Assembly (NCBI GenBank): GCA_035939775.1
Contig: DASZFO010000257.1
Location: 1-52,405 of the forward strand
Length of the DNA stretch: 52,405 bases
Direction of reading: 5' to 3'
DNA from: Pirellulales bacterium
GTDB taxonomy: Bacteria > Planctomycetota > Planctomycetia > Pirellulales > DATAWG01
In this document: positions 3,365 to 22,734 of the stretch, in pieces
Numbering within the stretch: position 1 is the stretch's first letter
Layout: each line of letters begins with the position of its first letter
Translations under genes and position numbers: made by a program
Notes under the pieces: generated by a model
Database searches by the model: none
What the model was told of the DNA's origin: nothing
The model's input: only the letters and a program-made list of their open reading frames with translations

Positions 3365-4630
3365 TCAGTTCCTTCCCGCCGCATCCAGCCGGAAGACTTC
3401 TTGCCCGTCGAACACCGCATCTTCAACGCAACCGTCGCGATTGCGGGCGCGGAGCCAGGTGTTCCAGCCTAGGCGGCTGCCGGGGCCGGAGTCGTCGGCT
3501 AGGATGCAGTCGGGGACGGCGTTCGCTTCGAGCAAGAGTTGCACGTCGAAGTCGAGCGTCGGGCCGATGAAGAGCCGCGTCAGATGCGAAAGCAGGAAGA
3601 AGGCTTTCGATTTTTTCACCGCCGCGCGATAGGGCAAGAACTCGGCGAACTGGTCATAGTCGAGCGGGCCGAGGCGGATGCGGATTCGCCCCTCGACGTC
3701 CCAAATCCGCTCGCCGATCACCATGTCGATCCCGAGGGCGCAATGCCCGGTCTCCAAACCCAATTGGGATTGATCCGACGGCTCCAGTTGCAGCCATTGG
3801 CCGTGGAATTGCCGCACTTCCACCGTCGCCTGGAAGTAATCGGCCAGGATCGCGGCCAGCCCGGCGGCGGTCCGCGGCCGACGGGCGAAGAGACCGGCGT
3901 AGTGCAGGATCGCCGTGTCTTCCACGCGGGCGACGACTTGGTCCTTTGAGTCGATCGGCGGGGCAAGGGGGACAGTCACCTTTTGCTGCCGACCATCTGG
4001 TGATTGTGCCCGCTCCGCAAAAGGGGACGGTCCCCAGCCGGAAACGCGGATACGATTCCGCAGGCTCGCCATACCCAGCCCCGAAAGGCTCAGCAGGCAA
4101 TGCGTGAACGGGTCTGGCGGATGCTCGGCGTGTTGCCCTCGCTCGTACGGAAGATAAAAGCGATATTTCTCCCACGCGCGGAAGAAATGCGAGAGCATGC
4201 GGTGCGTGAAGATGTCTAGCCAATCGCGCAAGGCGTGCTTCTCGGAATGCTTTGCATCGCGCTGAATCCGCATCAAGAGATCGGTGTAGTGCCGCGGCAG
4301 CACGCCGCTCGGCCCGGTGAGGCCGAAGAATGCCACGCTCATCGCCGGCGGCAGGCGGCCCGTTCGGTCTGGCCGAAGCTCGTAGATTTGGCTCGGCGGG
4401 AAATTGTGCGACAGATGGGCCGCGAACCGCGCGACTTCGCGCCCGGCAGGGCCGTCGAAGCCGACCGGATGCCGGTCCGGATTGAGCTTTTCGAGCAGCC
4501 GCACGGCCTGAAAGAAATTGAACGTCGGTCCCTGCGCGAAGAGCCGTTGCTCGACGGTCATCTCCGCGAGATCGACGTCCGCCGTGGCAGACGCTACAGC
4601 AATTGTTGGTCGCCCGCTCGCAGTGGCCAT
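3365..4630 (-). CDS. tssG: TssG, T6SS baseplate wedge protein
   Basis: A 421-residue baseplate subunit of the type VI secretion system (VasB/ImpH, DUF1305). TssG joins TssF and TssE in wedge complexes around the spike. The N-terminus has the family feature LFAQGPTFNFFQAVRLLEKL (about 29-49); the FFGLTGPSGVLPRHYTDLL region (about 104-122) and the late-middle LGPLDYDQFAEFLP also fit. The ATG lies inside the 3' end of tssF (37-bp overlap), so the two are translationally coupled. Residues about 197-223 are encoded by an 80-bp repeat element (3962-4041), which separates RIRVSGW from IDSKDQVVARVEDTAILHYAG. That segment is probably a surface loop acquired by insertion. Confidence 0.9.
   Translation of the reverse strand: MATASGRPTIAVASATADVDLAEMTVEQRLFAQGPTFNFFQAVRLLEKLNPDRHPVGFDGPAGREVARFAAHLSHNFPPSQIYELRPDRTGRLPPAMSVAFFGLTGPSGVLPRHYTDLLMRIQRDAKHSEKHALRDWLDIFTHRMLSHFFRAWEKYRFYLPYERGQHAEHPPDPFTHCLLSLSGLGMASLRNRIRVSGWGPSPFAERAQSPDGRQQKVTVPLAPPIDSKDQVVARVEDTAILHYAGLFARRPRTAAGLAAILADYFQATVEVRQFHGQWLQLEPSDQSQLGLETGHCALGIDMVIGERIWDVEGRIRIRLGPLDYDQFAEFLPYRAAVKKSKAFFLLSHLTRLFIGPTLDFDVQLLLEANAVPDCILADDSGPGSRLGWNTWLRARNRDGCVEDAVFDGQEVFRLDAAGRN
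3962..4041. repeat. 80-bp GGGACAGTCCC-type element inside tssG
   Basis: The sequence between GGCAAGGGGGACAGTCACC and AAGGGGACGGTCCCCAGCCGG matches the intergenic 29491-29570 element along its whole 80 bp: shared ends, shared GCCGACCATC core and shared GTGCC-N-GC-CGCAAAAGGGG. The ends are inverted, so it can fold. The copy is in frame and adds about 27 residues to TssG. Confidence 0.8.
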
Positions 4631-6453
4631 TTCTTGATGATCCCTCCGGTTTGCGTCGTCTTCGCCACGAGTTGAGTGAACGAATTGATCCCGGCATACA
4701 GGCCGAGGAACCGCTCCAAAATGCAGGCGAACAGAAACGCGCCGGTGCCGATGTATTTTTCCTCGTCGAACTCGATCGACACTTCGAGGCCGCGGCAGAA
4801 GCCGCTTCCCGAATGACTTCCGGTGCGGCCGATGATCCGTCGCGTGCCGAGTCGGGCGATCCCTTCGATCAACTGCCGCGTGACGTCGGCCAATTGCTGC
4901 TGGCCGGCTTGCGGATCGCTGAAATCATAGAGCCGGAGGATTTCGCGCAGGGCGTCGCGCCCCTCGGTCGGATCGTCGAGCGAGAGATAGTTGAGCGTAA
5001 GATGCGAGACCAAGGCCCAATAGCGGCCGCGGCGCGGCGGCGCCCGCAGCGGCGCCGTCGGCGTCTTGAGACAGCGAATGCCGGACAGCGGCGCAGCCCC
5101 CTCCAACTCGAAATAAAGCCGCTCTCCGGCGTGCTGGAGCTGGTTCGGTAGGTCGCGGTTGGTGCAGATGGTGCGCACGACCATCGTGTCGTCCGCCGGC
5201 AGACGCGCGTGGAAATCGAGATCAACGAGATTGAGAAACAGCTCGGTGCCGCGGTCCCCTTCGAGCGTCGAATTGCGGCGCGAGGCATGCCAAAAAGTCT
5301 GCCCCTCGTCGCCATCGCGATTGTGATGAAACGAGTAAAACGGCCGATAGGTCGTTGTGACCGAGGTTTCGGGGTCGGTGCTCGTCACCTCGTCGATCGA
5401 GTAGATCTCCATCCCGCGCGGCTGGGCCACGTCGGGAACGATCCGATATTCGTAGCGGCTCTGGTCGAGGACGATCGGCTCGGCGACCTGTTCGAAAAGG
5501 TTGACCACCGGCGTGCAGCCAAGGCGAAATGTCGATTGATCGACCCATTCCTGCACGCGCGGGATCGTGTGGTTCAAGTACAGGACGACCTCGAGCTTTT
5601 GCCCGAATCCGGCGTGCTTCGCGCGCTGCCAGCCGCCGATATCGACGAACAGGAATTTCTCGCGCATCGCGAAGAATTCGCTCAGCAGCCGATAGCCCAT
5701 GAAGCTCCGCGACGGATAGGGGAGCAGCCCTTCGTCGGAGGTGAAGCCGACTTGCGCGAGGCACTCTTGCGGCGCGAGCACGATCGGCTGCACCTTGGAT
5801 TCGGGATCGAGCGAGCGGAAGACCACTTGCGTCGTGTGGTTGAAGATCAGCTCGTACAACAATCCGACGACGTGCCCTTCGCCGAAAAGATAGAGTCGCA
5901 AGTCTTCGAGCGAAAGCTGCGAGAATCTCAAACCCGATTGGCACTCGAACTGCAACCGCAGCGCCGCGGCCGTCCGCCGCGGCGGCTCATATTCCCGCGG
6001 GAACGGCGGCGATTGCAGCGCCGCGCTCGTCAATTCGATCGGCCACAAGGTCACGGGATAGCCCGTGCGGAAGCGGCAGGCGAGATTGCCGATCTTGGCC
6101 GTTTGCAAGCGGCTGCCGCGCGCGATCGGGAAGCCGTCGGGAAGCGGCCCGCGGCTGGCGTCCAAGTCGAACTGGACGATCGCCATCGACGGCACGGGCG
6201 CGAGATAATGCGGATAGAGCACGCTCAGGAGCGCTTCGGTCAGCTCGGGGAATTCGTCGTCCAGTTTGTGGTGAATTCGCCCGGCCAAGAGCGCGAACGA
6301 TTCGATGAGCCGCTCGACGTGCGGGTCGCCGCTGCGGTTCGGCTCGAGGAGCAGCCGCCCCGCCGCCGCCGGATAGCGCTCGGCGAACTCCTCGGCAAAC
6401 TGCCGAATGAAGACCAGCTCGCGTTCGTAATAGGGAAAGAGCGATTCGCTCAT
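4594..6453 (-). CDS. tssF: TssF, T6SS baseplate protein
   Basis: A 619-residue TssF (VasA/ImpG) if started at ATG 6453; an in-frame TTG at 6471 would add six residues. The start MSESLFPYYERELVFIRQFA and the following AEEFAERYPAAAGRL are typical TssF. YPHYLAPVPSMAIVQFD (about 104-120) and the late GRTGSHSGSGFCRGLEVSIEFDEE region are also family features. TssF forms the (TssF)2-TssG wedge of the baseplate. It follows tssE by 28 bp, and that gap is part of a 7-bp tandem array that also supplies the purine-rich ribosome-binding region. Length is normal for the family. Confidence 0.93.
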   Translation of the reverse strand: MSESLFPYYERELVFIRQFAEEFAERYPAAAGRLLLEPNRSGDPHVERLIESFALLAGRIHHKLDDEFPELTEALLSVLYPHYLAPVPSMAIVQFDLDASRGPLPDGFPIARGSRLQTAKIGNLACRFRTGYPVTLWPIELTSAALQSPPFPREYEPPRRTAAALRLQFECQSGLRFSQLSLEDLRLYLFGEGHVVGLLYELIFNHTTQVVFRSLDPESKVQPIVLAPQECLAQVGFTSDEGLLPYPSRSFMGYRLLSEFFAMREKFLFVDIGGWQRAKHAGFGQKLEVVLYLNHTIPRVQEWVDQSTFRLGCTPVVNLFEQVAEPIVLDQSRYEYRIVPDVAQPRGMEIYSIDEVTSTDPETSVTTTYRPFYSFHHNRDGDEGQTFWHASRRNSTLEGDRGTELFLNLVDLDFHARLPADDTMVVRTICTNRDLPNQLQHAGERLYFELEGAAPLSGIRCLKTPTAPLRAPPRRGRYWALVSHLTLNYLSLDDPTEGRDALREILRLYDFSDPQAGQQQLADVTRQLIEGIARLGTRRIIGRTGSHSGSGFCRGLEVSIEFDEEKYIGTGAFLFACILERFLGLYAGINSFTQLVAKTTQTGGIIKKWPLRAGDQQLL

Positions 6454-6455
6454 CG

Positions 6456-6490
6456 CAATCTCAATTCTCAATACTCAGATTTCAAACTTT
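6456..6490. repeat. 7-bp tandem array at the tssE/tssF junction
   Basis: On the plus strand: CAATCTC, AATTCTC, AATACTC, AGATTTC, AAACTTT. On the coding (minus) strand it reads as TTGAGA-rich heptamers just before the tssF ATG, overlapping the tssE stop. The repeat may serve as the tssF ribosome-binding region. Confidence 0.65.
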
Positions 6491-6967
6491 CATCGTGCGG
6501 ATTTGCGTGCAACCGGTTGTGAGTTCCATCACCGTCTCGAACGAGATGTCGGGATAGGGCTCGATCCGCAGCCGGGCCTCAATCTGAAATCGCACGCTGA
6601 GATGATGAGCGCCGCGGCTGTCGTCCTTCACGTGCACCGTCACCTCGCGCAACCGCGGCTCGAAGCGGCTGATGATTTCCTCGACCATTTGACCGATCGA
6701 ATTGCGCTGCTGCGGTGTCGATGTCGACAAGGAACCGAAATCGGGAATGCCATAGCCCACCGGCGACTGCAGGATCTCCGGATACTCCTCGGGCAAATGG
6801 ATGATCGATCGATGCGTATTGAGCAGATCTTCCAAATCGCGGCGCACGGCCAGGATCACCTGCTCGATTCCGTAGCCGGCCCGAGCCGCTGTACCCGCGG
6901 AATCCGGATCGATCAGCCGATCCAGAATCGACGGAGTAAGAGCTTGATTGAGATCCACGCGAGCCAT
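6482..6967 (-). CDS. tssE: TssE, T6SS gp25-like baseplate protein
   Basis: A 161-residue protein of the GPW/gp25 family, the T4 gp25-like baseplate component that starts sheath polymerisation. DLNQALTPSILDRLID (about residues 4-19) is the TssE N-terminal motif. The middle region YGIPDFGSLSTS and the C-terminal EPRLREVTVHVKDDSRG carry the gp25 fold. The EPR triad essential in gp25-like proteins is present (FEPRL, about 118-122). The gene is preceded by a 200-bp gap after tagJ that contains a perfect small palindrome. Confidence 0.92.
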   Translation of the reverse strand: MARVDLNQALTPSILDRLIDPDSAGTAARAGYGIEQVILAVRRDLEDLLNTHRSIIHLPEEYPEILQSPVGYGIPDFGSLSTSTPQQRNSIGQMVEEIISRFEPRLREVTVHVKDDSRGAHHLSVRFQIEARLRIEPYPDISFETVMELTTGCTQIRTMKV

Positions 6968-7130
6968 TGCGACGGCCTTCGCAAACGTAAACGGCGAAAC
7001 GAACGTGAGTTATATCACAGATTCGCCGATGGCTCGACAGGGATTTATGGCGAATTGCAGCGGAGCATCGGAAACGATGCTCCGCGCGGTCTAACTACAT
7101 CCCTGATACCGGAAGCGCCCCGGAAACGCG

Positions 7131-7154
7131 CCGACGCTGGCAGCGTCGGCCACG
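7131..7154. repeat. Palindrome CCGACGCT-GGC-AGCGTCGG in the tagJ-tssE gap
   Basis: Perfect 8-bp arms with a 3-nt spacer, followed by CCACG. The same 24 bases recur exactly at 39751-39774. It lies in the 203-bp gap (6968-7170) between tagJ and tssE, where no gene is seen. Confidence 0.85.
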
Positions 7155-7170
7155 ATCAAACTCAACTTCG

Positions 7171-8001
7171 CTACGATTGCGGCGGCTCGGTTTCGCCGCC
7201 ATCGCTCGGCGGTGCGTCGATTTGCAATTGGCGCCATTCGAGCAGGGTCGAAGCGTCTTCGCCGGCCAGAAACATCCGCAAGCCACGACCGAAAACGGGA
7301 CCGTCGTCGTCCCCGAGCCAATCGGTCATCCGGCCGAGCTTGACCTGCTCGTCGGCGTGGGTGTGCGAATCGGGATAGAGGGCCGGGAGAAAAATCTGTC
7401 CCGCTTCGCCGACGTGCGTTTCCAGCCGCGCCCCCGCCCAGAGCAGATCGCGGGGAAATCGGGGCGGATTGATCGCGATCAACTCAATGTCTTCCAGCGG
7501 CACCCAGAAATAACTTCCCTGAGCAAAAACCTCGATCACGCCGCCGAACAGATCATCGCAATCGCGCAGTCCGTCGAAGGGCCGATCGTTGAGTTGGCCT
7601 TTCACCAGCGGCGCGGCCTCGGCCGCTTGGGCCAAGGACTCGGCGGCCTCGGCGCGACGGTTTTCACGCAGGTGGCCGAGCGCCTCCAGCCGCAGTCGAA
7701 CATGCTCGGCATGCGAATCGGTCAGAAACTTCGGCTGCGCCCCTTCGTGAAACACGCGGCGGCGGGCCTCCTCGGATTCCAGCAGGCGTCGATACTCCGA
7801 AACCGCCGCTTGCAGCTCGAGTTCGTCGTAGTTCAGCGCGTCGATCTGCTTCCGGGCTCGATCGAGTTCGCCGGCGAAGGCGAACAACTCGAACAAGAAT
7901 AGCCGCTTTCCCTGGTCGGCCGGATTAGCCTTCACCTGGGCAATCTGGAAGTCGATCGCTTCTTGCAACTTGCCGGCTTGAAACAGCTCGTGGCCATCCA
8001 T
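7171..8001 (-). CDS. tagJ: TagJ/ImpE-type T6SS accessory protein
   Basis: A 276-residue ImpE/SciE-family protein. The first 70 residues (MDGHELFQAGKLQEAIDFQ..., then NPADQGKRLFLFELFAFAGELDRA) form the TPR-like helical N-terminus. The C-terminal half, from about residue 140, is the ImpE beta domain (FDGLRDCDDLFGGVIEVFAQGSYFWVPLEDI). TagJ is known to bind the sheath subunit TssB and to be linked to ClpV-dependent recycling. ATG 8001 is chosen because AGGAAA lies about 9 bases upstream and MDGHEL is the family-like start; it is 8 bp from the end of the preceding hcp. A longer frame upstream is unlikely to be translated. Confidence 0.88.
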   Translation of the reverse strand: MDGHELFQAGKLQEAIDFQIAQVKANPADQGKRLFLFELFAFAGELDRARKQIDALNYDELELQAAVSEYRRLLESEEARRRVFHEGAQPKFLTDSHAEHVRLRLEALGHLRENRRAEAAESLAQAAEAAPLVKGQLNDRPFDGLRDCDDLFGGVIEVFAQGSYFWVPLEDIELIAINPPRFPRDLLWAGARLETHVGEAGQIFLPALYPDSHTHADEQVKLGRMTDWLGDDDGPVFGRGLRMFLAGEDASTLLEWRQLQIDAPPSDGGETEPPQS

Positions 8002-8009
8002 CGTATTTC

Positions 8010-8654
8010 CTATCTGCGCGACATTTCCCTTTGCGCAACGAAGTTCCAGCCCTTGACGTTGGCCGTCCCGAGGGTGCCCTCGGCGCTTTGCGATTTGTAC
8101 GACATCTCGCAAGTTTGAAAGCAGAAATCGATGGTTTCCTCCGGCGGGTCCGGACCTTGCGTCTGCAAATCGTAACCGACGATGTACACTCCGCGGAATG
8201 TGACCGTGAAATAGGCCTTGGGGTGCTTGGCGTGTGCGCCGAGCTTGCGGATGGTGATCTTCGCCTCGTCGAAACTGTTGTATTCGTGCCGCTTCGGCTT
8301 GAACGAATTGCTGAAATAGGCCTGAGCCAAAATGGGAGTCGCCTTTTCGATCTGCTTGGTGATCTGGAAGCGGTAGTCCTCCTCGATATTGCCGGTGCGC
8401 TTCGCGGTGCCGACGACGGGGAGCGCGGCGTCATCGTCGTCGTCGTCCCCTTCCTGTTTGGCGGCCTTCTTGTCGGCTGCCTTGGCCTTGGCCAGTGATT
8501 TCGCATCGCCGAAGCGGAACGACATGATCTCGAGCAGGGCCTTTGCTCGGGCGCTCTCGTTTTGCTTGGAGTCGAGCGCTTCGCCGGCAATCTCGGCCGT
8601 CATCTTGCGGCTCGGGGTCAACTCCAAGAATGCGTCGAGTGATTGTTTAGCCAT
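8010..8654 (-). CDS. Hcp-family T6SS tube protein, third paralogue (acidic insert)
   Basis: A 214-residue Hcp-like protein. The beta-barrel core is recognisable from LLEIMSFRFG (about 41-50), YRFQITKQIEKATPILAQAYF (about 93-113), AYFTVTFRGVYIVGYDLQTQ and PPEETIDFCFQTCEMSYK. Compared with the first paralogue it carries an extra linker of about 40 residues, rich in Lys/Ala and ending in a run of six Asp (DDDDDD, about 70-75), before the long beta-strand. The C-terminus is extended (TANVKGWNFVAQREMSRR). Its place in the operon suggests it joins the tube, caps it, or carries cargo; which of these is not visible. Confidence 0.82.
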   Translation of the reverse strand: MAKQSLDAFLELTPSRKMTAEIAGEALDSKQNESARAKALLEIMSFRFGDAKSLAKAKAADKKAAKQEGDDDDDDAALPVVGTAKRTGNIEEDYRFQITKQIEKATPILAQAYFSNSFKPKRHEYNSFDEAKITIRKLGAHAKHPKAYFTVTFRGVYIVGYDLQTQGPDPPEETIDFCFQTCEMSYKSQSAEGTLGTANVKGWNFVAQREMSRR

Positions 8655-8694
8655 TCGTCGTTCCGTACAAGCGTGCCACCAGCCGCCGTGGCGC

Positions 8695-8748
8695 GCTCCT
8701 CACGCTCCGCCGTGAGACTGCTTCCTCACGGCGGAAGACAAGAAGTAC
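8695..8748. repeat. Imperfect palindrome, relative of the 22762 element
   Basis: CTCCTCACGCTCCGCCGTGAG, then a short spacer and TTCCTCACGGCGGA, then GAAGTACAC. The order and wording match the 60-bp element at 22762-22821 (TCACGCTCCGCGTGA ... TTCCTCAGGCGGA ... ACTACAC). It lies in the 97-bp gap between two hcp genes and may set their relative expression. Confidence 0.65.
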
Positions 8749-8751
8749 ACC

Positions 8752-9420
8752 CTACCATGCGCCGCGCTCAATCATATCCCATCCCCCTTTGATTGCTGCC
8801 GGCTCCAGGCCGCCGGGCTCTTGCTGGGGCTTGTATTCCACGCGGCACTTGGCGAACACAAGATTGATCGTTTCCTTGGGGATCGCATCGCCGCCGATGT
8901 CGAGCGTGTACCCGGTCACGACCACGTCGCTGAAGACAAACGTAAGGAAAACCTTGCGGTTGCCTCCCGTCGCCTTTTTTACGTAGAGGGTCGCCGATTC
9001 GAACACATCGCGATTGTTCAAATCTTGCGTGCTGCAATAGGCGCGAAACAGGTCGGGCGACGAAAGATCGAGTTCCTTCGTAATCGTGATCTTGCAGGCA
9101 TCGACCTCCGCCAGATCGGTCCCCTCCAAATCCTTCAGCTCGCCTTCGTCGAATTCCTGCGGAGCGGAGGGCTCATCGCCGAAGAGGGAGGCGATTCCCG
9201 CCGCCCCATCGTCGTTGAAACGACCCCGGGCAACGCCGTGCCTGAGATTCGCGTCTTGCGCAGCGTACAACCCTTCCTTGTCCGGGAATCCCTGCGAACT
9301 GCCGAACTGGAACGACACGATCTCGATCAAGCCGGGAAACTTGTCGTCGGTCGATTCCCCTTCGATCGGCTCACCGTCTTTGACGAGCTTCAGAAAACCG
9401 TCGCACCATTCGGAAGGCAT
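8752..9420 (-). CDS. Hcp-family T6SS tube protein, second paralogue (central insert)
   Basis: A 222-residue Hcp-like protein. EGESTDDKFPGLIEIVSFQFG (about 19-39) matches the first Hcp. CKITITKELDLSSPDLFRAYC (about 108-128), RKVFLTFVFSDVVVTGYTLD and IPKETINLVFAKCRVEYKPQ complete the barrel. About 50 extra residues, glycine-rich then acidic (GDEPSAPQEFDEGELKDLEG), lie between the first strands and the long strand, where Hcp proteins have the extended loop. It is 7 bp from the preceding hcp gene and so co-translated. Enlarged Hcp proteins can be structural variants or carry effectors; no enzymatic motif is visible. Confidence 0.85.
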   Translation of the reverse strand: MPSEWCDGFLKLVKDGEPIEGESTDDKFPGLIEIVSFQFGSSQGFPDKEGLYAAQDANLRHGVARGRFNDDGAAGIASLFGDEPSAPQEFDEGELKDLEGTDLAEVDACKITITKELDLSSPDLFRAYCSTQDLNNRDVFESATLYVKKATGGNRKVFLTFVFSDVVVTGYTLDIGGDAIPKETINLVFAKCRVEYKPQQEPGGLEPAAIKGGWDMIERGAW

Positions 9421-9427
9421 ATATCAG

Positions 9428-9958
9428 CTAGCCGTCGAAGCTCGTGCTGTTGGTCACCTTGTTCCAGGCCCGTTCGACGAGCTTGCCGAGCACGCCGTCC
9501 TTGCCCTGCGGCTTATAGCCGATCTTGAGCGCGCCGTATTCGAAGACCACCGTCTCTTCCGGCACGTCGTCGCCCGAGGAGCCGGACCATTCGACGCTCT
9601 TGATCGCCACGAGCTTGAAGTCGTACGAGAGGTAAACGTCACCTGACGTCGTGCCCCCTTTGGCGCCCGACTTCCGCAGGCGAAGTTCGACCTTTTCGTA
9701 GTGCCCGCCCTTGCCGCAGGTGGAAGCCAGGATCGGCGACGCACAATCGGTCTGCTTCTTGATCGTAAACTCCTTGAAATCGGCCTTACCCGCGCCGGCG
9801 CCGCTGGAAGCGGAGGTGATGTTCAGGGTGTTTTCGATGCCGAAGGAAAACTCCTTGATCTCGAACCAACCCTTGAACATGCTATCCGTGCTCTCTCCCT
9901 GAATCGGCTCCGAAGCGCCCGCCGCGGGATAGAACTTGACAAATGCGTCGAATGCCAT
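9428..9958 (-). CDS. hcp: Hcp, T6SS inner tube protein
   Basis: A 176-residue Hcp close to the usual length (160-175). It starts MAFDAFVKFYPAAGAS, with EPIQGESTDSMFKGWFEIKEFSFGIEN (about 17-43), FTIKKQTDCASPILASTC (about 63-80), a long beta-strand region and VPEETVVFEYGALKIGYKPQ (about 132-151). This is the most standard of the three Hcp proteins and the likely main tube subunit, stacking as hexamers inside the TssBC sheath. It follows tssC after a 108-bp gap with a small palindrome, so it may be expressed more strongly than its neighbours from its own signal. Confidence 0.93.
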   Translation of the reverse strand: MAFDAFVKFYPAAGASEPIQGESTDSMFKGWFEIKEFSFGIENTLNITSASSGAGAGKADFKEFTIKKQTDCASPILASTCGKGGHYEKVELRLRKSGAKGGTTSGDVYLSYDFKLVAIKSVEWSGSSGDDVPEETVVFEYGALKIGYKPQGKDGVLGKLVERAWNKVTNSTSFDG

Positions 9959-10038
9959 GATCGAACTCCTTGGACTCCTTGAAAATCAATGAACCAACCG
10001 TGAGTGAGCCTGTCCGCCGTGAACTAAGACTGCGTGAA

Positions 10039-10055
10039 CAAGGCTGCCAGCCTTG
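10039..10055. repeat. Miniature palindrome CAAGGCT-GCC-AGCCTTG
   Basis: Perfect 7-bp arms around 3 nt, in the tssC-hcp gap. It has the same architecture as the 2517, 7131 and 39751 palindromes. Confidence 0.7.
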
Positions 10056-10066
10056 AACGACCGCGT

Positions 10067-11542
10067 CTAGCCCTTCTTGGGAACTTCCGCCACCAAACGC
10101 ATCGAAGTCGTCAATGCTTCCAACTGGTAGTGCGGGCGCAAATAGGCCACCGCTTCGTACCAGCCCGGCCGGCCTTCGACTTCGCGAACTTCGACCTTCG
10201 CGTCGGCCAGTGGGAATTTCGCTTTCGTTTCGTCGCTGGCCCCGTTTGGATCGCAGACGAAATTCTGAATCCAATCGTTGAGCCACTGGGCGCAATCCTT
10301 GACCTCCATGAACGAGCCAATCTTATCGCGCGCCATGACCTTTAGGTAGTGGGCGAACCGCGAGGTGCAAAGGATCAAGTTGAATTTCGCCGACAGCTCG
10401 GCATTCGCATTCGCGGCCGGATCGAAATAAGTCTTAGGCTTCTGGCACGATTGCGCGCCCATGAACACGGCATAGTCGGTCCCCTTGGCGTGGATCAAAG
10501 GTAGGAAGCCGAGATTCGACAGCTCGAACTCGCGGCGGTCGGTGATCGCGATTTCGGTCGGGCATTTCATCGCGACGTCGCCATCGTCGGTCGGGAAGGT
10601 ATGCACGGGAAGCCCTTCGACTCGGCCACCCCCTTCGACGCCGCGGGTGCGGGCGAACCAACCCCATTTGGAGAACGAGTCGGTGATTCGCGCGGCATAC
10701 GTCCAGGCGGCGCTCATCCAGAGATACTTGTCGTGGTCCTTGCCGTCGACGAATTCCTCGAAGTTGAATTCCTCTACGCGCTTGAATTCCGCTCCGTACG
10801 GCAAGCGGCCAAGCGTCTTGGGAAGCGTCAGGCCGACGAACCGCGAATCCTCCGATTCCCGGAACGACTTCCAAGAGGCGTATTCCACGCTGTCGAAGAT
10901 CTTGGCCAGATCGCGCGGGTTGGCTAGTTCCGTGTAACTGTCGAAATTGAACATCTTCGGGCTGGTGGCCGCGATGAACGGGGCGTGCGAGGCAGCGGCC
11001 ACGTTCGAGATCATCTTCAGCAAGCTGATGTCTTCCGGTCCGCGGCCAAAGTCATAGTCGCCGACCAACATCCCATAGGGCTGGCCGCCGAGCTGGCCGT
11101 ATTCCTCTTCGTAGATCTTCTTGAATAGGGCGCTCTGATCGAATTCCGCGGCCTTTTCGAGGTCTTTGAAGAGATCGCGCTTGCTCACGTTGAGCACCCG
11201 GATCTTGAGGTTCTCGCCCGTCTCCGATTGATGCACTAGATAGTGCAATCCGCGCCAACTCGATTCCAGCTTTTGGAAATCGGGATTGTGCAGGATTTCG
11301 TTCAACTGATGCGTCAACACTCCGTCGATCTGGGCGATCCAGTGCTTGACGTTGGTTTCGACATCCTTCGAGATGACCTCTCCGGGCTTGACCACCTGAT
11401 TGAGAAACTGCCGGAAATAGTCCTTGGCCCGAGCCGCCTCTTGGTCCGTCTGCGGCCGGGTGGCCGTGATGACCTGATCGAGTAGGTCGAGCGTTTCGGC
11501 TTCTTGCCCGGCGGCACTGGCGGTTTGTTCGGCACTGCTCAT
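10067..11542 (-). CDS. tssC: TssC, T6SS contractile sheath large subunit
   Basis: A 491-residue VipB/ImpD-family protein at normal length. Diagnostic stretches are LESSWRGLHYLVHQSETG (about 92-109), YGMLVGDYDFGRGPEDISLL (about 156-175), FIAATSPKMFN and AWTYAARITDSFSKWGWFARTRGVEGGG. The C-terminal part includes the NLILCTSRFAHYLKVMARDKIGSF region that interlocks with TssB, and PHYQLEALTTSMRLVAEVP at the end. With TssB it forms the contractile sheath. It lies 96 bp after tssB in the expected order. Confidence 0.96.
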   Translation of the reverse strand: MSSAEQTASAAGQEAETLDLLDQVITATRPQTDQEAARAKDYFRQFLNQVVKPGEVISKDVETNVKHWIAQIDGVLTHQLNEILHNPDFQKLESSWRGLHYLVHQSETGENLKIRVLNVSKRDLFKDLEKAAEFDQSALFKKIYEEEYGQLGGQPYGMLVGDYDFGRGPEDISLLKMISNVAAASHAPFIAATSPKMFNFDSYTELANPRDLAKIFDSVEYASWKSFRESEDSRFVGLTLPKTLGRLPYGAEFKRVEEFNFEEFVDGKDHDKYLWMSAAWTYAARITDSFSKWGWFARTRGVEGGGRVEGLPVHTFPTDDGDVAMKCPTEIAITDRREFELSNLGFLPLIHAKGTDYAVFMGAQSCQKPKTYFDPAANANAELSAKFNLILCTSRFAHYLKVMARDKIGSFMEVKDCAQWLNDWIQNFVCDPNGASDETKAKFPLADAKVEVREVEGRPGWYEAVAYLRPHYQLEALTTSMRLVAEVPKKG

Positions 11543-11638
11543 GCGATTAACACCTGAGTAAAGTCGTGAAGTTGATTTCGTTGCGAGCCACGAGAATTCG
11601 GCCCGGCGCGCCGCAAACGGCGGAGCGGACCGAAGGGA

Positions 11639-12148
11639 TCATTCCTTGGGAGCTTCGACGCCCAGTTGTTCGGCGAGCTTCTTCGCGGCGTCGGTGTTGT
11701 TCAACACCTGACCGAGGAGTTCTTCGAGCTTATCGTTTCCTTCCATCTTGCTCATCAATTGAGTGAGCCGCTTGCGCATTTCGAGCAGCTCGCGGAGCGG
11801 GCCGACTTGCTCGGCCACGCGGGCGGGCTCGAAATCGTCGATATGCTTGAAGTTCAGCTCGACGCCCAGCTTGCCGTCGCCAGTGATCTTGTTGTCCACT
11901 TTGATCGCAACGCGCGGGGCGGCCTTTTCCAGCACGCTATTGAAATTGTCGCGGTCGATGCTGACCACTTTCCGCTGCTTGAGCGGCGGCAGTTTCTCTT
12001 TGGGCTGGCCGGAAAGATCCGCCAGCGCGCCAACCACGAACGGCAATTCGGTCTTGACCATCGCGCCGTTGGTCTCGACGTCGTAAGTGATCTGAACGCG
12101 CGGCCGGCGGACGCGGTCCAATTTATGTTGCGTGCTCTCTTTCGACAT
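11639..12148 (-). CDS. tssB: TssB, T6SS contractile sheath small subunit
   Basis: A 169-residue VipA/ImpB protein, first gene of the cluster. RRPRVQITYDVETNGA (about 14-29), PFVVGALADLSG (about 37-48) and DGKLGVELNFKHIDDFEPARVAEQV (about 89-113) are the family landmarks. The C-terminal helix that binds TssC follows. ATG 12148 is chosen because the MSKESTQHKLDRVRRPRV start fits the family and GGAG lies at a good distance; the 21 codons upstream in frame are not family-like. The promoter for the T6SS operon should lie in 12149-12546. Confidence 0.95.
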   Translation of the reverse strand: MSKESTQHKLDRVRRPRVQITYDVETNGAMVKTELPFVVGALADLSGQPKEKLPPLKQRKVVSIDRDNFNSVLEKAAPRVAIKVDNKITGDGKLGVELNFKHIDDFEPARVAEQVGPLRELLEMRKRLTQLMSKMEGNDKLEELLGQVLNNTDAAKKLAEQLGVEAPKE

Positions 12149-12482
12149 GACGCTTCTCCGGAACAACAGGGTAGTATCGGTCGTCAGCGAACTCGGCCAA
12201 ACCGGATTCAAGCCTGAGGCCGCCGATTCGGTATCCGCCCGCCAATCGTTTTACAAGTGTAGCACCGGCTACGCAGAATTCGGCCTTGGCCCGGCAACCG
12301 GTAAACCGCATTGCAACTGATTAGCACACGGTAGTTTCGAGCAATCGCCCGAACTTGTCAAGCGGTTCGCAAAGGCTCTTCGCGAAAGCTTGGCGAAACC
12401 ATTTTTTCGGAATGAGCCCCTCGCTTGCTGTCGTGCGGCCGCCAGCCCTAGAATGCCTTTGTCGGAACCGCTGCTGCAAGAC
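12149..12482. other. Divergent intergenic region between tssB and the dnaJ-like gene
   Basis: No credible gene is seen in this stretch. It must contain the leftward promoter for the T6SS genes and probably the rightward promoter for the co-chaperone gene. No clear sigma-70 boxes stand out, and no long hairpin was found. Confidence 0.5.
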
Positions 12483-14565: not shown

Positions 14566-17031
14566 ATGTCACGTCGCAAGAGAGGCAATTCGACCGAGCT
14601 CAGAGCGGCACCAGCTTCGCGGCGGAGTGGCGGCGATGTCGGCGGCGCGGCCTTCATTGCCAGTGCGGACGCTCGGCTGCCTCAAGCCGCGGCTTCATCG
14701 AGCCGGTTGTCAACGCTGGTTTGCGTTGTCCTGATCGCGGGGGCGACAGTAGCGGCGTATCACAACAGCCTTCGCGGCCCATTTGTTTTTGACGACAGCT
14801 ATTGGATCGTCGAGAATCCCTCGATTCGGCATCTTTGGCCGATTTGGGATGTGCTCTTTTCGGAGCGTGCCATTTCGTACGGCGGTCGCCCGGTCGTGGC
14901 CCTGAGCCTGGCTGTCAACTACGCTTGCGGCGCCAACGTCTGGGGCTATCATGCGATGAATGTCGCCATTCATTTCTTGGCGGCGTTGACATTGTTCGGC
15001 GTGATTCGTCGCACGCTGTCTCTGCCTCGCCTCCGAGATCGCTTTGGCCCCGCGGCAACTCCGCTGGCGCTCATCGCAACGTTGCTTTGGACGGTCCATC
15101 CTCTGCAAACTTCAGCGGTCACGTACGTCATTCAGCGTGCTGAAACGCTCGTCAGCCTGTTCTATCTGCTCATTATCTACTGCGTGATCCGTGGGGCGAA
15201 CGCGAGCGAGAGTAGTTCAAAGCGCAGCAAGGCTAGGTACATTGGCGCCGTGGCGGCAGCGGTGCTCGGCGCGGCGACCAAGGAAGTGGTCGTGACCGCT
15301 CCGGCCGTATTGCTGCTCTACGATCGAGCATTCTTGAGCGGATCGTTCCGCAACTCGCTTGCTCAACGCTGGGGCCTGTACTTAGCGCTGGTAGCGAGCT
15401 GGGGCGTGACCGTCTGGGGATTAGTTTCAACGCGGCTTCATGCCGGCTCAGTCGGTTTTGCCGTGTCGGAGTTCACTTGGTGGTCGTATTTGCTGACTCA
15501 GCCCGGTGTTTTGCTGCATTATCTGCGGATGGCGGTTTGGCCGTCTGGACTCGCATTGGATTACGGCTGGCCACGAGCGCAAACTTTCGGGGAGATCGTG
15601 CCGGCAGCGGCGTTGATCGTAGGAATGTTGGGCTTCACTTTCTGGGCGGTCGTGAAACGTCCGGTGCTCGGGTTCTTGCCGGCGGCATTCTTTTTGATCC
15701 TGGCGCCGACTTCCAGCTTTGTTCCCATCTTGGATGCGGCCTTCGATCATCGCATGTATTTGGCACTGGCGCCGGTGGTTGTCCTCGCCGTGTCGGTCGG
15801 ATATGTGTTCTTGGACCGACGCCTATCGCGGCCAACGGCAACCGGCGCGCAATTCGTGGTGCGACGCTGGGCGGCGCCTCTGGCGGCGCTAACAGCGATT
15901 TTGATCGCACTCTGCTCAGCGACTATAAAGCGCAACGACGACTTTCGCTCGGACGTGGCGATCTGGCAGGACACAGTCGACAAACGCCCGCAAAACGCGC
16001 GCGCCCACAATGGACTTGGCGACGCATTTAAGGACCAGGGAAACACCGAACAGGCGCTTGCTCAATATGAGCAAGCGCTCGAGATCAAGCCGGAACTCAG
16101 CGAGTCTTTCTTGAGCCTCCTCCACATTCTTTCGGCACAAGACCGTCTCGATCGGGGAATCGAACATGCTCGCCAGGTTTTGAAGTCTCAGCCCCGGAAT
16201 CCGCAAGCCCATAACAATCTGGCCGGGTTTCTCGCGGCGGCAGACCGGCCGGACGAGGCTCTGGTTCAATTCAAACAGGCCCTGGCCATTGACTCCGACA
16301 ACCTCGACACTCATATCAGACTCGCCGACTTTTTCTTTCATCAAGGAAAGTTGGACGACGCCATTGCTCAATACCAGCTCATTTTGCGAGCGCAGCCCGA
16401 CGCCGCGGACACACGAAACAATTGGGCTCGCGCGCTGGCCGCTCAAGGTCACGACGCTGCCGCTCTCGCCGAAGCCCGGCGGGCATTGGAAATCAAGCCC
16501 GATCTTGCCCCCGCCCATCTGACCCTTGCCGATGTTTTCGCGCACCAAGGCAAAGCTGACGAGGCAACCGTCGAATTGAAAAAGGCACTGGAAATCAACC
16601 CGGATTTCGCTGAGGCGCACCACAATTTGGGCTTCCTGCTAGCGAATCGAGGCAAAACGGATGAGGCGATCGCGCATTTCCAGAGGGCCTTGGAAATCAA
16701 GCCCGATCTTGCCGAAGCTCACAACAATCTGGCCGTCACTTTGGAGAGATCGGGCAAGGACGACGCGGCCATCGAGCATTTCCGCAAGGCGATCGAGATC
16801 TACCCGCGATACCCCGAGGCTCATAACAACCTAGGAGCGCTCTTGAGCAATCGCGGCAACTTCGACGACGCGATTACCCATTTGCGCAAGGCCATTGAAT
16901 TGCGACCGGATTACGACGAAGCCCGCAAAAATCTCGACCTCGCTCTCCAGCGGCGGGATGCTAGCGTTCTCCGTTCCAGCAAATTGCTTCCTGGGCTGCC
17001 CACTTCCGCGGGAAAATCGAAGTCGCCTTGA
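14566..17031 (+). CDS. GT-C-like polytopic membrane protein with C-terminal TPR array (TMTC-like)
   Basis: 821 residues. After a 45-residue basic/Ala-rich N-terminus comes a multi-helix membrane half (to about residue 455). FVFDDSYWIVENPSI (about 72-86) gives the acidic motif in the first extracytoplasmic loop typical of GT-C transferases. LLWTVHPLQTSAVTYVIQRAE (about 171-191) is typical of the bacterial relatives of eukaryotic TMTC O-mannosyltransferases. The C-terminal third holds about nine canonical 34-residue TPRs (repeated 'AHNNLG..L...G..DEAI.HF.KALEI.PD'). The likely role is transfer of a lipid-linked sugar to exported proteins, with the TPRs recruiting substrate. Glycosyltransferase activity is inferred, not shown. 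Confidence 0.82.
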   Translation: MSRRKRGNSTELRAAPASRRSGGDVGGAAFIASADARLPQAAASSSRLSTLVCVVLIAGATVAAYHNSLRGPFVFDDSYWIVENPSIRHLWPIWDVLFSERAISYGGRPVVALSLAVNYACGANVWGYHAMNVAIHFLAALTLFGVIRRTLSLPRLRDRFGPAATPLALIATLLWTVHPLQTSAVTYVIQRAETLVSLFYLLIIYCVIRGANASESSSKRSKARYIGAVAAAVLGAATKEVVVTAPAVLLLYDRAFLSGSFRNSLAQRWGLYLALVASWGVTVWGLVSTRLHAGSVGFAVSEFTWWSYLLTQPGVLLHYLRMAVWPSGLALDYGWPRAQTFGEIVPAAALIVGMLGFTFWAVVKRPVLGFLPAAFFLILAPTSSFVPILDAAFDHRMYLALAPVVVLAVSVGYVFLDRRLSRPTATGAQFVVRRWAAPLAALTAILIALCSATIKRNDDFRSDVAIWQDTVDKRPQNARAHNGLGDAFKDQGNTEQALAQYEQALEIKPELSESFLSLLHILSAQDRLDRGIEHARQVLKSQPRNPQAHNNLAGFLAAADRPDEALVQFKQALAIDSDNLDTHIRLADFFFHQGKLDDAIAQYQLILRAQPDAADTRNNWARALAAQGHDAAALAEARRALEIKPDLAPAHLTLADVFAHQGKADEATVELKKALEINPDFAEAHHNLGFLLANRGKTDEAIAHFQRALEIKPDLAEAHNNLAVTLERSGKDDAAIEHFRKAIEIYPRYPEAHNNLGALLSNRGNFDDAITHLRKAIELRPDYDEARKNLDLALQRRDASVLRSSKLLPGLPTSAGKSKSP

Positions 17032-17180: not shown

Positions 17181-18911
17181 ATGAAGCCTTTTGACGCGGA
17201 CTTATTATCTCACCTCGGCCGCCGCGAATTCCTCGTCTGCGGGAGCTTGTTATTTCTGGCGGGCTGCGTGGCTCCTGCGGTCCGATCGCAGAGCCCGGAA
17301 GACGCGGAAATGGCGTCGATCGAAAAGCAAGTCCGCTTGATTGAGGCGGTTGCCGTGCCGTTCGGGATGAATTACGTGAGCGCGGAAGGTCCGGCGTTGA
17401 TTGTCGGCCTGAAGAACACCGGCAGCGATCCGCCGCCGGATCCGAAACGGGCCGAACTCCTGGCCGACATGAAGGCCCGCGGCGTTGTGAACCCAAATAC
17501 CGTGCTGGCCTCACCGAGTACGTCTCTGGTTTGGGTCAAGGTGTTCTTGCCGCCAGGCGCCCAGAAGGGAGACCCGCTCGACATCACCGTGCGCGTGCCC
17601 CCTCAAAGCGAAACGACGAGTCTCTGGGGTGGCTGGCTGATGGAGGCGCGGCTCAAGGAAAAGGCCTTGTTGATGGACAATCAGGTTCACGATGGTCACG
17701 TGCTGGCGATCGGCGAGGGACCGCTGTTGGTCGATCCGCCCGGTTCGGCCGACGACAAGGCCTCGCAACTTCGGGCCCTCGTGCTCGGCGGTGCGCGAGT
17801 GCTCAGGGACCGCAATCTCGGGCTATCGATCAAGGATGCGGACAAGTCGGTCTTTCTGAGCAAGCAGATCGGCGATGCGCTCAATCGGCGCTTTCATACA
17901 TTCGCACATGGAACTCAACAGGGCGTCGCCACGCCGAAGACCGACACGTTCATCGAGCTGCAAATGCACCCGCGGTACAAGCACAACTTGCCGCGCTACA
18001 TTCGCGTGGTCCGATCGGTCGCGATTCACGAAACTCCTACGGAACAAATCGGCCGGCTGAAGTTGCTCGAGAAGCAATTGCTCGACGCCGTCACATGCGA
18101 AACCGCCGCGCTGCGGCTGGAAGCGCTCGGCAAAGATGGCATGCCGGTGCTCAAAATCGGCATGAAATCGAGCGACCCCGAGGTGCGGTTTTACTCGGCC
18201 GAAGCGCTGGCGTATCTCGACGACGCCTCGTCGGCCAAGCCGTTGGCCGACGCGGCCCGCAACATCCCAGCCTTTCGGGCGTATGCGCTCACTGCCCTCA
18301 GCTCGCTCAACGACGTTGAATCGAGCGACGAACTCAGGGCCTTGCTCGACGTGCCGAGCGCCGAAACTCGCTATGGGGCCTTCCGCGCGCTGTGGGGCAT
18401 GAACGAGCGCGATCCGCTGGTGAGGGGAGAGAACCTCGGCGGCAAGTTCAACTACTGCGTGCTCAACACGGCCGGGCCGCCGATGATCCACGTCACTCGC
18501 AGCTTCCGGGCAGAGGTCGTGATGTTCGGGCCGGGGCAGGTGCTGGCGCTGCCCGTGTCGCTCGAGGCGGGCAAGTCGATCGTGATCAACGGCCGCGATG
18601 CCGATCAGGTCACCGTGAGTCGATTCGCCGTCGGCGAGGCCGACCAAAAACGGGTCGTCTCGAACCAAGTGGACGACGTGATCCGGGCGATTGTCGAACT
18701 GGGAGGCGACTATCCCGACGTGGTGCAATTCCTCCAACAAGCGAAGGCCAACCGCGCCCTGTCCTGTCGACTGGAAGTCGACGCGCTGCCCAACCCCGAT
18801 CGCCATTTCGATCGGGAACGCGGCGAGGCGGCGACCGCCGGCAGCGACGATCCGAACTATCAAGTGACCACGCCACTCCCGAACCTGTTCTCGAATTCCG
18901 CTCCGAAATAG
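17181..18911 (+). CDS. FlgI (flagellar P-ring)-like lipoprotein fused to HEAT-like repeats
   Basis: A 576-residue exported protein. GRREFLVCGSLLFLAGC (about 14-30) combines a twin-arginine motif with a lipobox ending in Cys30. Residues about 50-230 follow the FlgI plan: VRLIEAVAVPFGMNYVSAEG, then ALIVGLKNTGSD, PNTVLASPSTSLVWVKVFLP, GDPLDITVRVPPQSETTSLWGGWL and HDGHVLAIGEGPLLVD. About 300-410 is a helical repeat region (KSSDPEVRFYSAEALAYLDD..., SAETRYGAFRALW) like HEAT repeats, then a beta-rich C-terminus. ATG 17181 has GGAG about 9 bases upstream. No other flagellar gene is nearby, so it may be a repurposed P-ring fold anchored at a membrane. Confidence 0.78.
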   Translation: MKPFDADLLSHLGRREFLVCGSLLFLAGCVAPAVRSQSPEDAEMASIEKQVRLIEAVAVPFGMNYVSAEGPALIVGLKNTGSDPPPDPKRAELLADMKARGVVNPNTVLASPSTSLVWVKVFLPPGAQKGDPLDITVRVPPQSETTSLWGGWLMEARLKEKALLMDNQVHDGHVLAIGEGPLLVDPPGSADDKASQLRALVLGGARVLRDRNLGLSIKDADKSVFLSKQIGDALNRRFHTFAHGTQQGVATPKTDTFIELQMHPRYKHNLPRYIRVVRSVAIHETPTEQIGRLKLLEKQLLDAVTCETAALRLEALGKDGMPVLKIGMKSSDPEVRFYSAEALAYLDDASSAKPLADAARNIPAFRAYALTALSSLNDVESSDELRALLDVPSAETRYGAFRALWGMNERDPLVRGENLGGKFNYCVLNTAGPPMIHVTRSFRAEVVMFGPGQVLALPVSLEAGKSIVINGRDADQVTVSRFAVGEADQKRVVSNQVDDVIRAIVELGGDYPDVVQFLQQAKANRALSCRLEVDALPNPDRHFDRERGEAATAGSDDPNYQVTTPLPNLFSNSAPK

Positions 18912-19092: not shown

Positions 19093-22000
19093 ATGCTGAA
19101 GGCCCTGGAACTTGTCGGATTCAAGAGCTTCGCCGACAAAACTCGGTTTGAGTTTCCCCAGGGGATCACGGTCGTAGTCGGTCCCAACGGCTCGGGGAAA
19201 TCAAACGTCGTCGACGCCATCAAGTGGGTGCTCGGCGAACAAAGCGTCAAGAGCCTGCGCGGCAAGGAGATGGCCGACGTCATCTTCAACGGCTCCGCCA
19301 CGCGCAAGCCGCTGAATACCGCCGAGACGACGCTCGTCTTCGACAATTCGGACGGCCGGCTGCCGATCGATGCCCCTGAAGTCCATATTTCGCGGCGAGT
19401 TTATCGCAGCGGCGAAGGGGAGTATCTCATCAATCGCCAGCCGAGCCGGCTTCGCGACATTCGCGATCTGTTCGCGGGCACCGGCGCGGCGACCGAGGCC
19501 TATAGCGTCATCGAGCAGGGAAAGGTCGACGTGCTGCTGCAAGCCTCGCCGCGCGATCGGCGCGTGATCTTCGAGGAGGCGGCCGGCATCAGCCGTTTCA
19601 AGGCGAAGAAAATCGAAGCCCTGCGACGGTTGGACCGTGTCGAGCAGAATTTGCTCCGGTTGTCTGACATCGTCGACGAAGTGGAAGGCCGGTTGCGCAC
19701 AGTTCGCCAACAAGCCAGCAAAGCGCGGCGGTACAAGGAGCTTGCCGATCGCCTTCAAGAGCTGCGGATCCAAGTCGGTTGGGCCGACTGGCGACAGTTG
19801 ACCGAGAGACTTACCGCTGCGGAGGCCGAAATCGCCTCGCTTCGCGACGAGGCGCAATCCGCGAACTCACAGGCCGAAACGATTGAAGCCCGGGCGCTCG
19901 AGCTGGAAACGGAGATGGCCGAACTCGATCGGCTGATCCGCACGAGCGAGGCGCGAATTACCGAGAATCGCGAGCGGTTGGCCGCGCTCGAATCGACCAT
20001 CGAGCATGAGCGGTCGTATACCCGTGATCTGGACGAGCAGTCCGCGCGGCATCGACAGCATTTGGCCTCGCTCAACGTCCGCGTCGGCGACGTGGAAGGT
20101 CAGATGCAGGCCGCCGTGGAAGCCGCCGCGGACGCCCAAGAGCGGCAGCGGCAGGCTAGTAGTCGACTGGCCGACCACGAACGAGCGCTCACCGCGCTCA
20201 CCGCCCAACTCGACCAAGTCCGCAATGAGAACGAGCAGCGCCGCGTCTCCTTTCTCGCCGAGACCCGAGCGGCCGCGACGCTGACGACGGAGATCGGCTC
20301 GCTCGAATCGCAACTGGCTCGCGCGGAATCGGCGCGTGAGACCTGCCGAGCCCAACAGGCCGGACTCGAGAATCGACGGCGTCTCCTCCAGACCGAATTG
20401 GCCGATCTCGAGGCGCGCCAGCGTCAATTGGCGGACCAATTTGGCTCACGAGCCGCGGCACTAACGGCGGCGCAAAACCAGCTCATCGAAGGCCGCCGCC
20501 GCCAGACGCAGCGGCAGAAGGAATTGGCGAAATGGCGCGAGCGCCGCGCCGCGGCCGCCGAGCGGTCCCGAGTGCTTACCGAGCTGGAAAATCGCCTCGA
20601 AGGCGTCGGCGCCGGAGTTAGGGAAGTGCTGGCGCTGGCCAAGACCGACGCGACGGGGCCGTTTGCACGGGTTCGCGGAATGTTGGCCGATCTGCTCAAT
20701 GTCGATGTTCAATTCGCGCGGTTCATTGAACTCGCGCTTGGCGAAAAGGCCCAGCATCTCGTGGTCTCACCGGCCGAGCCCTTGCTGGCGTTCCTGGCCG
20801 CCGAGACGCGAAGCTTTCAGGGCCGCGTTGGTTTCTTGATGCTCGGCAAGGGGCAACACGAACCCGGGGATTCCGCATTCGAAGGACGCGAAGGTGTGAT
20901 CGGGCGGGCCGAACGCTTTGTCCAAGTCGCGCCAGAATATCGGCCGCTGATCGGCCGGCTTCTCGATCGGACTTGGATCGTCGCCAGCCTGGCACAGGCC
21001 TTGCGGCTCGCTCCCTTGGCACAATCGGGAACGCAATTTGTATCGCTCGGGGGCGAAATGCTCCTGGCCGACGGCACACTCACGGTCGGCCCCTTGCAAG
21101 CCGCCAGCGGCCTCATCTCGCGGCGAAGCGAACTGCGGGCACTCGCGCAGCAGATCGCTGAATTCGACAAATGCATTCGAGAAGTCGAAGGCGTTCTCGC
21201 CAGCCTGGAAAACCAATTGGCCCGGCAAGATGTCGCCGTCGTCGACCTGACGAGCGAACACCAGCGGGCTGCTGAAGCGTTCGCCGAGGGCCGGATGCAG
21301 CTCAGCGCCGCCGCACAGCAGCACACGCAATTGGAACAGCAGATCGCGGCTCTCGTCACGTCTCGCGCCGCGGCCGAGCGCGAATGGGAAACGATCTCGG
21401 CATCGCTCGCCGCGGCCCGTGCCCGGCTTGACGAACGGCAGGCGTCGTTGGCTCAAGCGGAATCGCGGATCAGCGATAATGTCCGGCGAATCGCCGAACT
21501 CGACGAGGGACGCGAGATTCGTAATCGAGAGACGATGGCAGCCAAAGTGGAATTGGCCCGCAGCGAGCAACAACTCGAGCATCTCCGCGCCCAATTGCGG
21601 CAGTTCGAACAGGATCGCCGCGAGCGGCATGGAGCCATAGCCGACGGCCAGGAGCAACTGGCGCATTGCGTCGGCCGTATTCGCGAATCGGAAGAGCGGA
21701 TTCTCACTGCGGAATGCCAATTGGCCGAGCTATATCTCCGCAAAGAAGCGATGAGCGGCGAGACCGTCGCCCTGAACAATCGCCGCGAGTCCTTGCGGCA
21801 GGAGCGGACGACCGCCGCGGATGAAGCCCAGCGGCACCGCGCGCGAGTTCGAAAACTTGACGAAAAACTGCACAAGAGAGAATTGATCGCCGGCGAATTG
21901 AACCATGAGCGGGGCGTCCTCGTCGATCGCCTTCGCGAGGATTACGGCATCGAACTCAATAATCTGAGTGAGCCGACGGCGGAAGAATCGCGCGAGCGAG

Positions 22001-22734
22001 CGGTCGTCGAAGAGGAAATTGCCGATCTGCGCCGGAAACTGGCCAATATCGGCAACGTGAATCTCGATTCGCTGCACGAGGCCGACGAGCTGGAAGCCCG
22101 CTTCGCCTCGCTTTCGACGCAGTTTCAAGACCTGACCAAGGCCAAATCGTCTTTGCAGCAGATCGTCGGCAAGATCAACGCCGACAGCCGCCGCCTCTTC
22201 GCCGAGACGCTCGAGACTGTGAAAGGCCATTTTCAAGAGTTGTTCCGCAAGCTGTTCGGGGGGGGCCAGGCCGATATCGTGCTTGAAGAAGGGACTGACA
22301 TCCTGGACACCGGGATCGAGATCGTCGCCCGACCGCCCGGCAAGGAGCCGCGGAACATTTCGCTCTTAAGTGGCGGCGAAAAGACGCTTACCTGCGTGGC
22401 GCTGCTGTTGGCGATCTTCCGCAGCCGGCCCAGCCCGTTCTGCGTGCTCGATGAAGTCGACGCGGCGCTCGACGAAGCGAATACCGAGCGGTTCGTTGGC
22501 GTGCTGACGGAATTCCTCGCCTGGACACGTTTCATCGTGGTGACGCACTCGAAGAAGACGATGACCGCGGCCAATACGCTCTACGGCATCACGATGCAGG
22601 AATCAGGCGTCTCGAAGCGCGTCTCGGTGCGGTTCGAGGACGTCCGTGAAAACGGCGAGATTCGCGAGGACGTCGTCGCCGCGCCGGATCGCCCCGCTGC
22701 GAATGACGATTCTGACCAGCGGCGCGCGGCTTAG
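19093..22734 (+). CDS. smc: Chromosome segregation protein SMC
   Basis: 1213 residues, normal for bacterial SMC. The N-terminal ABC-type head has [30 protein letters not shown] (Walker A about 30-37) and the [31 protein letters not shown] region (about 139-169). Two long coiled coils flank a hinge (about 515-660; [26 protein letters not shown]). The C-terminal head has the signature [19 protein letters not shown] (about 1092-1110) and Walker [16 protein letters not shown]. It forms the condensin-like ring with ScpA/ScpB, which are not in the window. The leader has no obvious Shine-Dalgarno sequence; it is a pyrimidine-rich tandem array. Confidence 0.97.

Follow-up and report, generated by a model that had tools for sequence, protein, structure and literature searches.

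A FlgI paralogue with an inserted HEAT block, retained independently of flagella in a planctomycete class

The flgI-HEAT locus

The window, meaning the whole 52,405-nucleotide stretch of DNA analysed here, contains a gene for a protein that joins a FlgI-like ring fold to helical HEAT repeats; gene and protein are referred to as flgI-HEAT and FlgI-HEAT. The gene starts at an ATG and its product begins with MKPF, as in the relatives L153 and L211. The features of the locus are as follows.

14566-17031: gene with TPR repeats, upstream neighbour
17181..18911 (+): flgI-HEAT, called as an open reading frame of 576 amino acids, stop codon within the coordinates
17181..17267 (+): signal sequence (twin arginine, lipobox), last codon Cys29, read from the sequence
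17334..18035 (+): part like FlgI IRU and OR, residues 52-285, from profile and structure matches (domain names from PMC8298488)
18036..18416 (+): HEAT block (insertion), residues 286-412, from Pfam and structure matches
18417..18800 (+): domain like FlgI IRL, residues 413-540, from hhalign and predicted structure
18801..18908 (+): C-terminal tail of low confidence, residues 541-576, from pLDDT
18973..19031 (+): strong hairpin (z-score -5.7) in the flgI-HEAT/smc intergenic gap
19093..22734 (+): smc, the conserved neighbour on the downstream side, from profile match and adjacency

The first-pass annotation placed the gene outside a flagellar cluster and beside smc and a TPR gene, and both descriptions are accurate. 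None of the 14 window proteins scanned (positions 240 to 24185) is flagellar; smc lies downstream and the TPR gene upstream. Elsewhere in the window, the minus strand carries a type VI secretion cluster (3368-12211) with matches to TssG, TssF, ImpE, Hcp, VipB and VipA.

Domain architecture

The N-terminal half of the protein follows FlgI, as had been proposed from the sequence. Residues 70-288 match the Pfam FlgI domain (PF02119; E 1.1e-14; 54.6 bits, cut-off 25.3) over positions 18-231 of the 343 in the profile, and hhalign aligns this half with FlgI at 99% probability. On the NCBIfam model for flagellar FlgI (NF003676), FlgI-HEAT scores 49.5 bits, under the cut-off of 300. The AlphaFold2 model, computed from an alignment of the window protein with 54 relatives (alignment A3; 54 of 80 loci), is confident (pLDDT 87.2; pTM 0.82). 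Its top four Foldseek matches in the PDB, at E 2.6e-12 to 1.4e-11, are FlgI chains from flagellar LP rings; VIA-align superposes 198-207 residues on FlgI, within model residues 52-286 (Z 15.9-16.3; rmsd 8.7-8.9). Over the whole chain, Foldseek superposes the model poorly on FlgI (rmsd 18-19); this, with the VIA-align rmsd, indicates that the domain arrangement in the model differs from that of the P ring.

The remainder of the protein had been taken for a HEAT-like middle and a new C-terminus. The former is confirmed by a HEAT_2 match at residues 323-404 (Pfam; E 6.8e-9), and the latter is overturned. When residues 408-576 are folded separately (pLDDT 84.3), FlgI chains take the first two places in a VIA-align comparison with the PDB (Z 6.6 and 6.3, with rmsd 2.6 and 3.1 over 76 and 81 residues), and the matches cover FlgI residues 247-365; unrelated PDB entries begin at Z 4.0. 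Foldseek also ranks FlgI at the top, but with an E of 0.043. In hhalign, the comparison of this domain with FlgI IRL gives 28.2, and the maximum over 20 column shuffles is 7.5. The sequence match to IRL is weak and a structural Z of 6-7 is modest; the identity is held nonetheless, since FlgI comes first, the expected FlgI segment is covered and hhalign agrees. On the predicted structure, residues about 413-540 are the C-terminal lower inner ring domain of FlgI (IRL), and a HEAT fusion with a new C-terminus is ruled out. Both halves of the model match FlgI best.

According to the available text of PMC8298488, FlgI is divided into OR (residues 1-11 and 160-230), IRU (12-159) and IRL (231-346). 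These borders and the match ranges together place the HEAT block at the border between OR and IRL. Since the C-terminus corresponds to IRL, the HEAT block interrupts a complete FlgI, and the second half has not been replaced; the IRU/OR and IRL domains are both present in the modelled protein. The three domains of FlgI-HEAT thus follow one another along the chain as they do in FlgI (PF02119; PDB 7cbl, 7bgl and 8z5n), OR/IRU before IRL, and the protein is apparently exported, as FlgI is. Unlike FlgI, it has HEAT repeats between OR and IRL, is often predicted to be lipidated, lies outside a flagellar cluster and is retained without flagella.

The inserted helices resemble HEAT and alphaRep helical repeats (PF13646) and also match solved alphaRep proteins; here they are embedded in the fold of an exported ring protein. 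Averaged over the columns (44 rows), the frequency of the commonest residue is 0.51 in the HEAT block and 0.42-0.50 in the ring domains, which makes the HEAT block as conserved as they are.

Lysine at the rod-facing positions Lys63 and Lys95 (Salmonella numbering) is found in 3/21 and 1/21 FlgI-HEAT proteins, compared with 9/22 and 10/22 canonical planctomycete FlgI proteins; the window protein lacks both. Because these lysines also vary in canonical planctomycete FlgI, their loss carries little weight, and it was rejected as proof of a non-flagellar function.

Export signal and lipid anchor

The N-terminus, GRREFLVCGSLLFLAGC, contains a lipobox preceded by two arginines, and G28 and C29 each reach at least 90% conservation across alignment A3. 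A crude pattern, refined once and still overlooking members recognisable by eye, finds the lipobox in 62 of the best 80 of 346 relatives, in 7/12, 6/10 and 7/11 members of other sets, in 4/4 members of family f5 and in 3/4 of family f21; it finds none among the 10 members of family f63. Twin arginines ahead of the hydrophobic stretch are a minority feature (15 of the best 80 of 346 relatives, also by a crude pattern).

The first-pass description of a Tat-like lipobox is therefore apt for the window protein, which has the twin arginine and Cys29, and does not extend to the family: the Tat motif is mostly missing and f63 lacks the lipobox. As far as the sequences show, export is probably general, lipid anchoring common and the Tat motif incidental. 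In E. coli, valine rather than aspartate following the lipid cysteine sorts a lipoprotein to the outer membrane. FlgI-HEAT has valine at this position, so it is predicted to be an outer-membrane lipoprotein.

Distribution relative to flagellar genes

Two genome samples were searched: 148 genomes across the phylum and, more densely, 118 genomes of the class. A long FlgI-like protein is present besides or instead of canonical FlgI in 36 of the 148 phylum genomes; this count passes over the short or interrupted FlgI frames of G023, G077 and G095. The 36 comprise all 16 class members of the sample, 12 genomes of other families in which the window protein also finds the relative, and four each of f5 and f21, in which the FlgI-like protein is detected only with PF02119. 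FlgH is missing in six of the 36, outside the class. Neither FlhA nor rod proteins were found in these six genomes, and both were found in five controls. By Pfam, the FlgI-like protein contains HEAT repeats in two of the six (G093 and G137) and lacks them in the four f21 genomes.

Within the class, a search with the window protein finds a FlgI-HEAT relative in 117/118 genomes. FlgH is present in 64/118, and full-length or near-full-length FlgI is present in the same 64; G237, G245, G210, G223 and G247 give partial or split FlgI matches. FlgI-HEAT is kept in 53 of the 54 FlgH-lacking genomes, the exception being the draft genome G232. FlgI-HEAT and flagellar genes do not strictly co-occur, and the suggestion of a P-ring fold without a flagellum is borne out.

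The host genome also has a separate canonical FlgI (C353:58167-59156; 249.5 bits). The same contig, C353, carries FlgH (C353:59388), rod proteins and a FlgA-type chaperone (C353:60206), whereas flgI-HEAT is located on contig C257. FlgA is the chaperone of the P ring. Among 19 non-flagellates, 14 have no FlgA match and five have partial matches; with FlgA mostly missing, assembly of FlgI-HEAT would not follow the flagellar route.

The search of public genome contigs gave 346 relatives, of which the best 80 were retained. Their titles are planctomycete, save one that reads merely 'bacterium'. Six of these 80 bins bear 'Kuenenia' or other odd titles and are probably mislabelled; the bins titled 'Candidatus Kuenenia stuttgartiensis' (L181, L182, L187, L200 and L220) contain Pirellulales-type loci, about 51-52% identical to the window protein.

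Descent

A tree of FlgI domains was built from 79 rows, with the canonical row L041 left out. Canonical FlgI and four FlgA-FlgI fusions fall on one side; all FlgI-HEAT proteins and FlgI-like lipoproteins fall on the other (support 98/98). This clean split fits a single ancient duplication. Long branches lead to the f21 and f5 rows, whose exact placement is unsure. The f21 protein has no HEAT block and aligns with nearly the whole length of FlgI, so HEAT may have been inserted after the duplication, or may have been lost in f21.

A second type of FlgI paralogue occurs in genus g6 (L094:9448-11337, minus strand; also L095, L096 and L100). It is membrane-anchored, and its FlgI part comes after a stretch that resembles the FlgA chaperone (SAF). 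The idea that this fusion belongs to a Tad operon was dropped; only TadE/TadG-like genes are present, several kb away.

Gene neighbourhood

smc is the only broadly shared neighbour of flgI-HEAT. It is found at 30 of 37 loci, and no other genuine neighbour family exceeds six; neighbour clusters 2-4 of this comparison are, judged by position, shadow frames on the strand opposite smc and flgI-HEAT, and are not counted. On a 33-locus set that leaves out four FlgA-FlgI loci, smc is on the same strand with a gap of at most 300 bp at 28. Outside these 28 are L077, where smc is 2.8 kb off, and L087, where the reading frame of smc extends across the upstream gene, making the gap unmeasurable. For the best 80 of 346 relatives, smc is directly downstream on the same strand at 70 of the 74 loci with enough downstream DNA (median gap 97 bp; range -1 to 291) and missing at four; six more loci stop at the contig end. 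All 10 class loci outside f63 have smc adjacent. These sets overlap (L241 and L165 are apparently one 81,418-base contig), so the 33-, 74- and class-locus counts are not additive.

The TPR gene is not broadly conserved as a neighbour, and of the two genes noted beside flgI-HEAT only smc proves general. Pirellulales-type loci often have a DnaJ-like gene (31/81) or rnpA (29/81) upstream.

Family f63 (L223-L232) has FlgI-HEAT without smc at all 10 loci. In none of these 10 genomes does a full-length SMC exceed the model cut-off; only coiled-coil matches are found. At L223, the one f63 locus read whole, an HTH/response-regulator-like gene directly follows FlgI-HEAT; in the window, such a gene follows smc. 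The pair is also broken at L063, L078, L093, L187, L204, L211 and L218. The adjacency is thus old but not essential. Since flgI-HEAT is kept in FlgH-less genomes and in the smc-less f63, the gene outlives both the flagellum and smc.

A hidden, diverged FlgI-HEAT 5' of smc was considered for 40 genomes with no hit and rejected; the best E with the family HMM is 0.52. Upstream of smc in L103-L142, the translations often read as ATP-cone ribonucleotide-reductase-like and activase-like genes. In the window, the hairpin in the gap is long, perfect-looking and present in a single copy (-42.7 kcal/mol), and is followed by a short tandem stretch, CTCCGACCT-like. With a hairpin of this strength in the gap, co-transcription of flgI-HEAT and smc is uncertain in the window.

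Proposed function

To our knowledge, FlgI has been described solely in the flagellum. A paralogue near universal in the class, which outlives both flagellum and smc and carries a HEAT solenoid, points to a second envelope job for the P-ring fold, apparently a core one; it seems that a component of the flagellum was turned into general equipment of the cell envelope. The P-ring fold itself is already known. Neither a FlgI-HEAT protein or flgI-smc locus in planctomycetes, nor a HEAT insertion with near-universal non-flagellar retention, was found in a search of the open-licence literature; 'flgI' and 'smc' are absent from the main texts of PMC10632474, on the essential genes of P. limnophila, and of PMC8567305, on the T. 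immobilis proteome.

The leading interpretation, to which about an even chance is given, is that FlgI-HEAT is an exported, usually lipid-anchored, non-flagellar paralogue of FlgI that acts as a ring or scaffold of the peptidoglycan layer with a HEAT arm. The FlgI duplicate would be exported via its N-terminal signal, lipid-anchored in most lineages and placed in the periplasm within the peptidoglycan layer. The OR domain of FlgI is reported, in the available text of PMC8298488, to be similar to peptidoglycan-binding OmpA-like domains; by analogy, FlgI-HEAT may contact peptidoglycan. Subunits could pack side by side as FlgI subunits do, giving a ring, arc or lattice, and the HEAT solenoid would project as an arm on which another envelope protein may dock. 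The retention of all three domains of a ring-forming protein, a HEAT block no less conserved than those domains and the export signal speak for this interpretation. The poor whole-chain superposition, the missing or partial FlgA, the modest C-terminal match and the lack of a lipobox in f63 are points against a ring or scaffold.

Some of the same observations are consistent with a monomeric tether or adaptor, a possible though doubtful alternative in which the FlgI domains would bind peptidoglycan, the lipid would link to the outer membrane and the HEAT block would bind a partner, with no ring formed. The lipobox in most lineages, the lack of FlgA in most non-flagellates and the un-FlgI-like domain arrangement of the model agree with such a role, and the HEAT block may impede close packing. 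However, the protein keeps both IRU and IRL, the domains behind the ring contacts of FlgI, and a simple tether would have no need of them; f63, moreover, keeps the protein and loses the lipobox. The widely conserved pairing with smc, the only neighbour of which this can be said, might instead reflect an envelope partner of SMC that aids chromosome segregation or links nucleoid and envelope. This is very unlikely: the pair is broken in f63 and at seven further loci, the two proteins should sit on opposite sides of a membrane, and a hairpin occupies the gap in the window. A strict dependence on smc is ruled out by the 10/10 f63 genomes. An accessory to the flagellum or an alternative P ring would account for the FlgI homology, and the host does have flagellar genes; yet this is improbable in the extreme, given the FlgH-lacking class genomes that keep FlgI-HEAT and its location on a contig other than that of FlgI, FlgH and the rod genes. 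This candidate was rejected on those class genomes and on the six without FlhA or rod proteins.

A more specific form of the ring or scaffold interpretation concerns the crateriform structures of planctomycetes. These are ring-like and are reported, in passages of PMC5287468, to persist in SDS-boiled walls; the literature passages available on them name no subunits. Like FlgI-HEAT, they belong to the planctomycete envelope and do not depend on flagella, and FlgI-HEAT is a candidate member only. As a wall-embedded ring subunit of these structures, it would represent a duplicated P ring with a HEAT docking arm, forming the collar of a trans-envelope 'press stud' found in this group alone. Although unlikely, this would suit the near-universal retention in the class, the flagellar independence and the frequent lipid anchor, as well as the homology to a peptidoglycan-layer protein and the survival that is reported for the pits in SDS-boiled walls. 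FlgI-HEAT offers a concrete gene for probing the make-up of these unexplained wall structures. Against a crateriform role, families outside the class have a FlgI-HEAT-type protein too.
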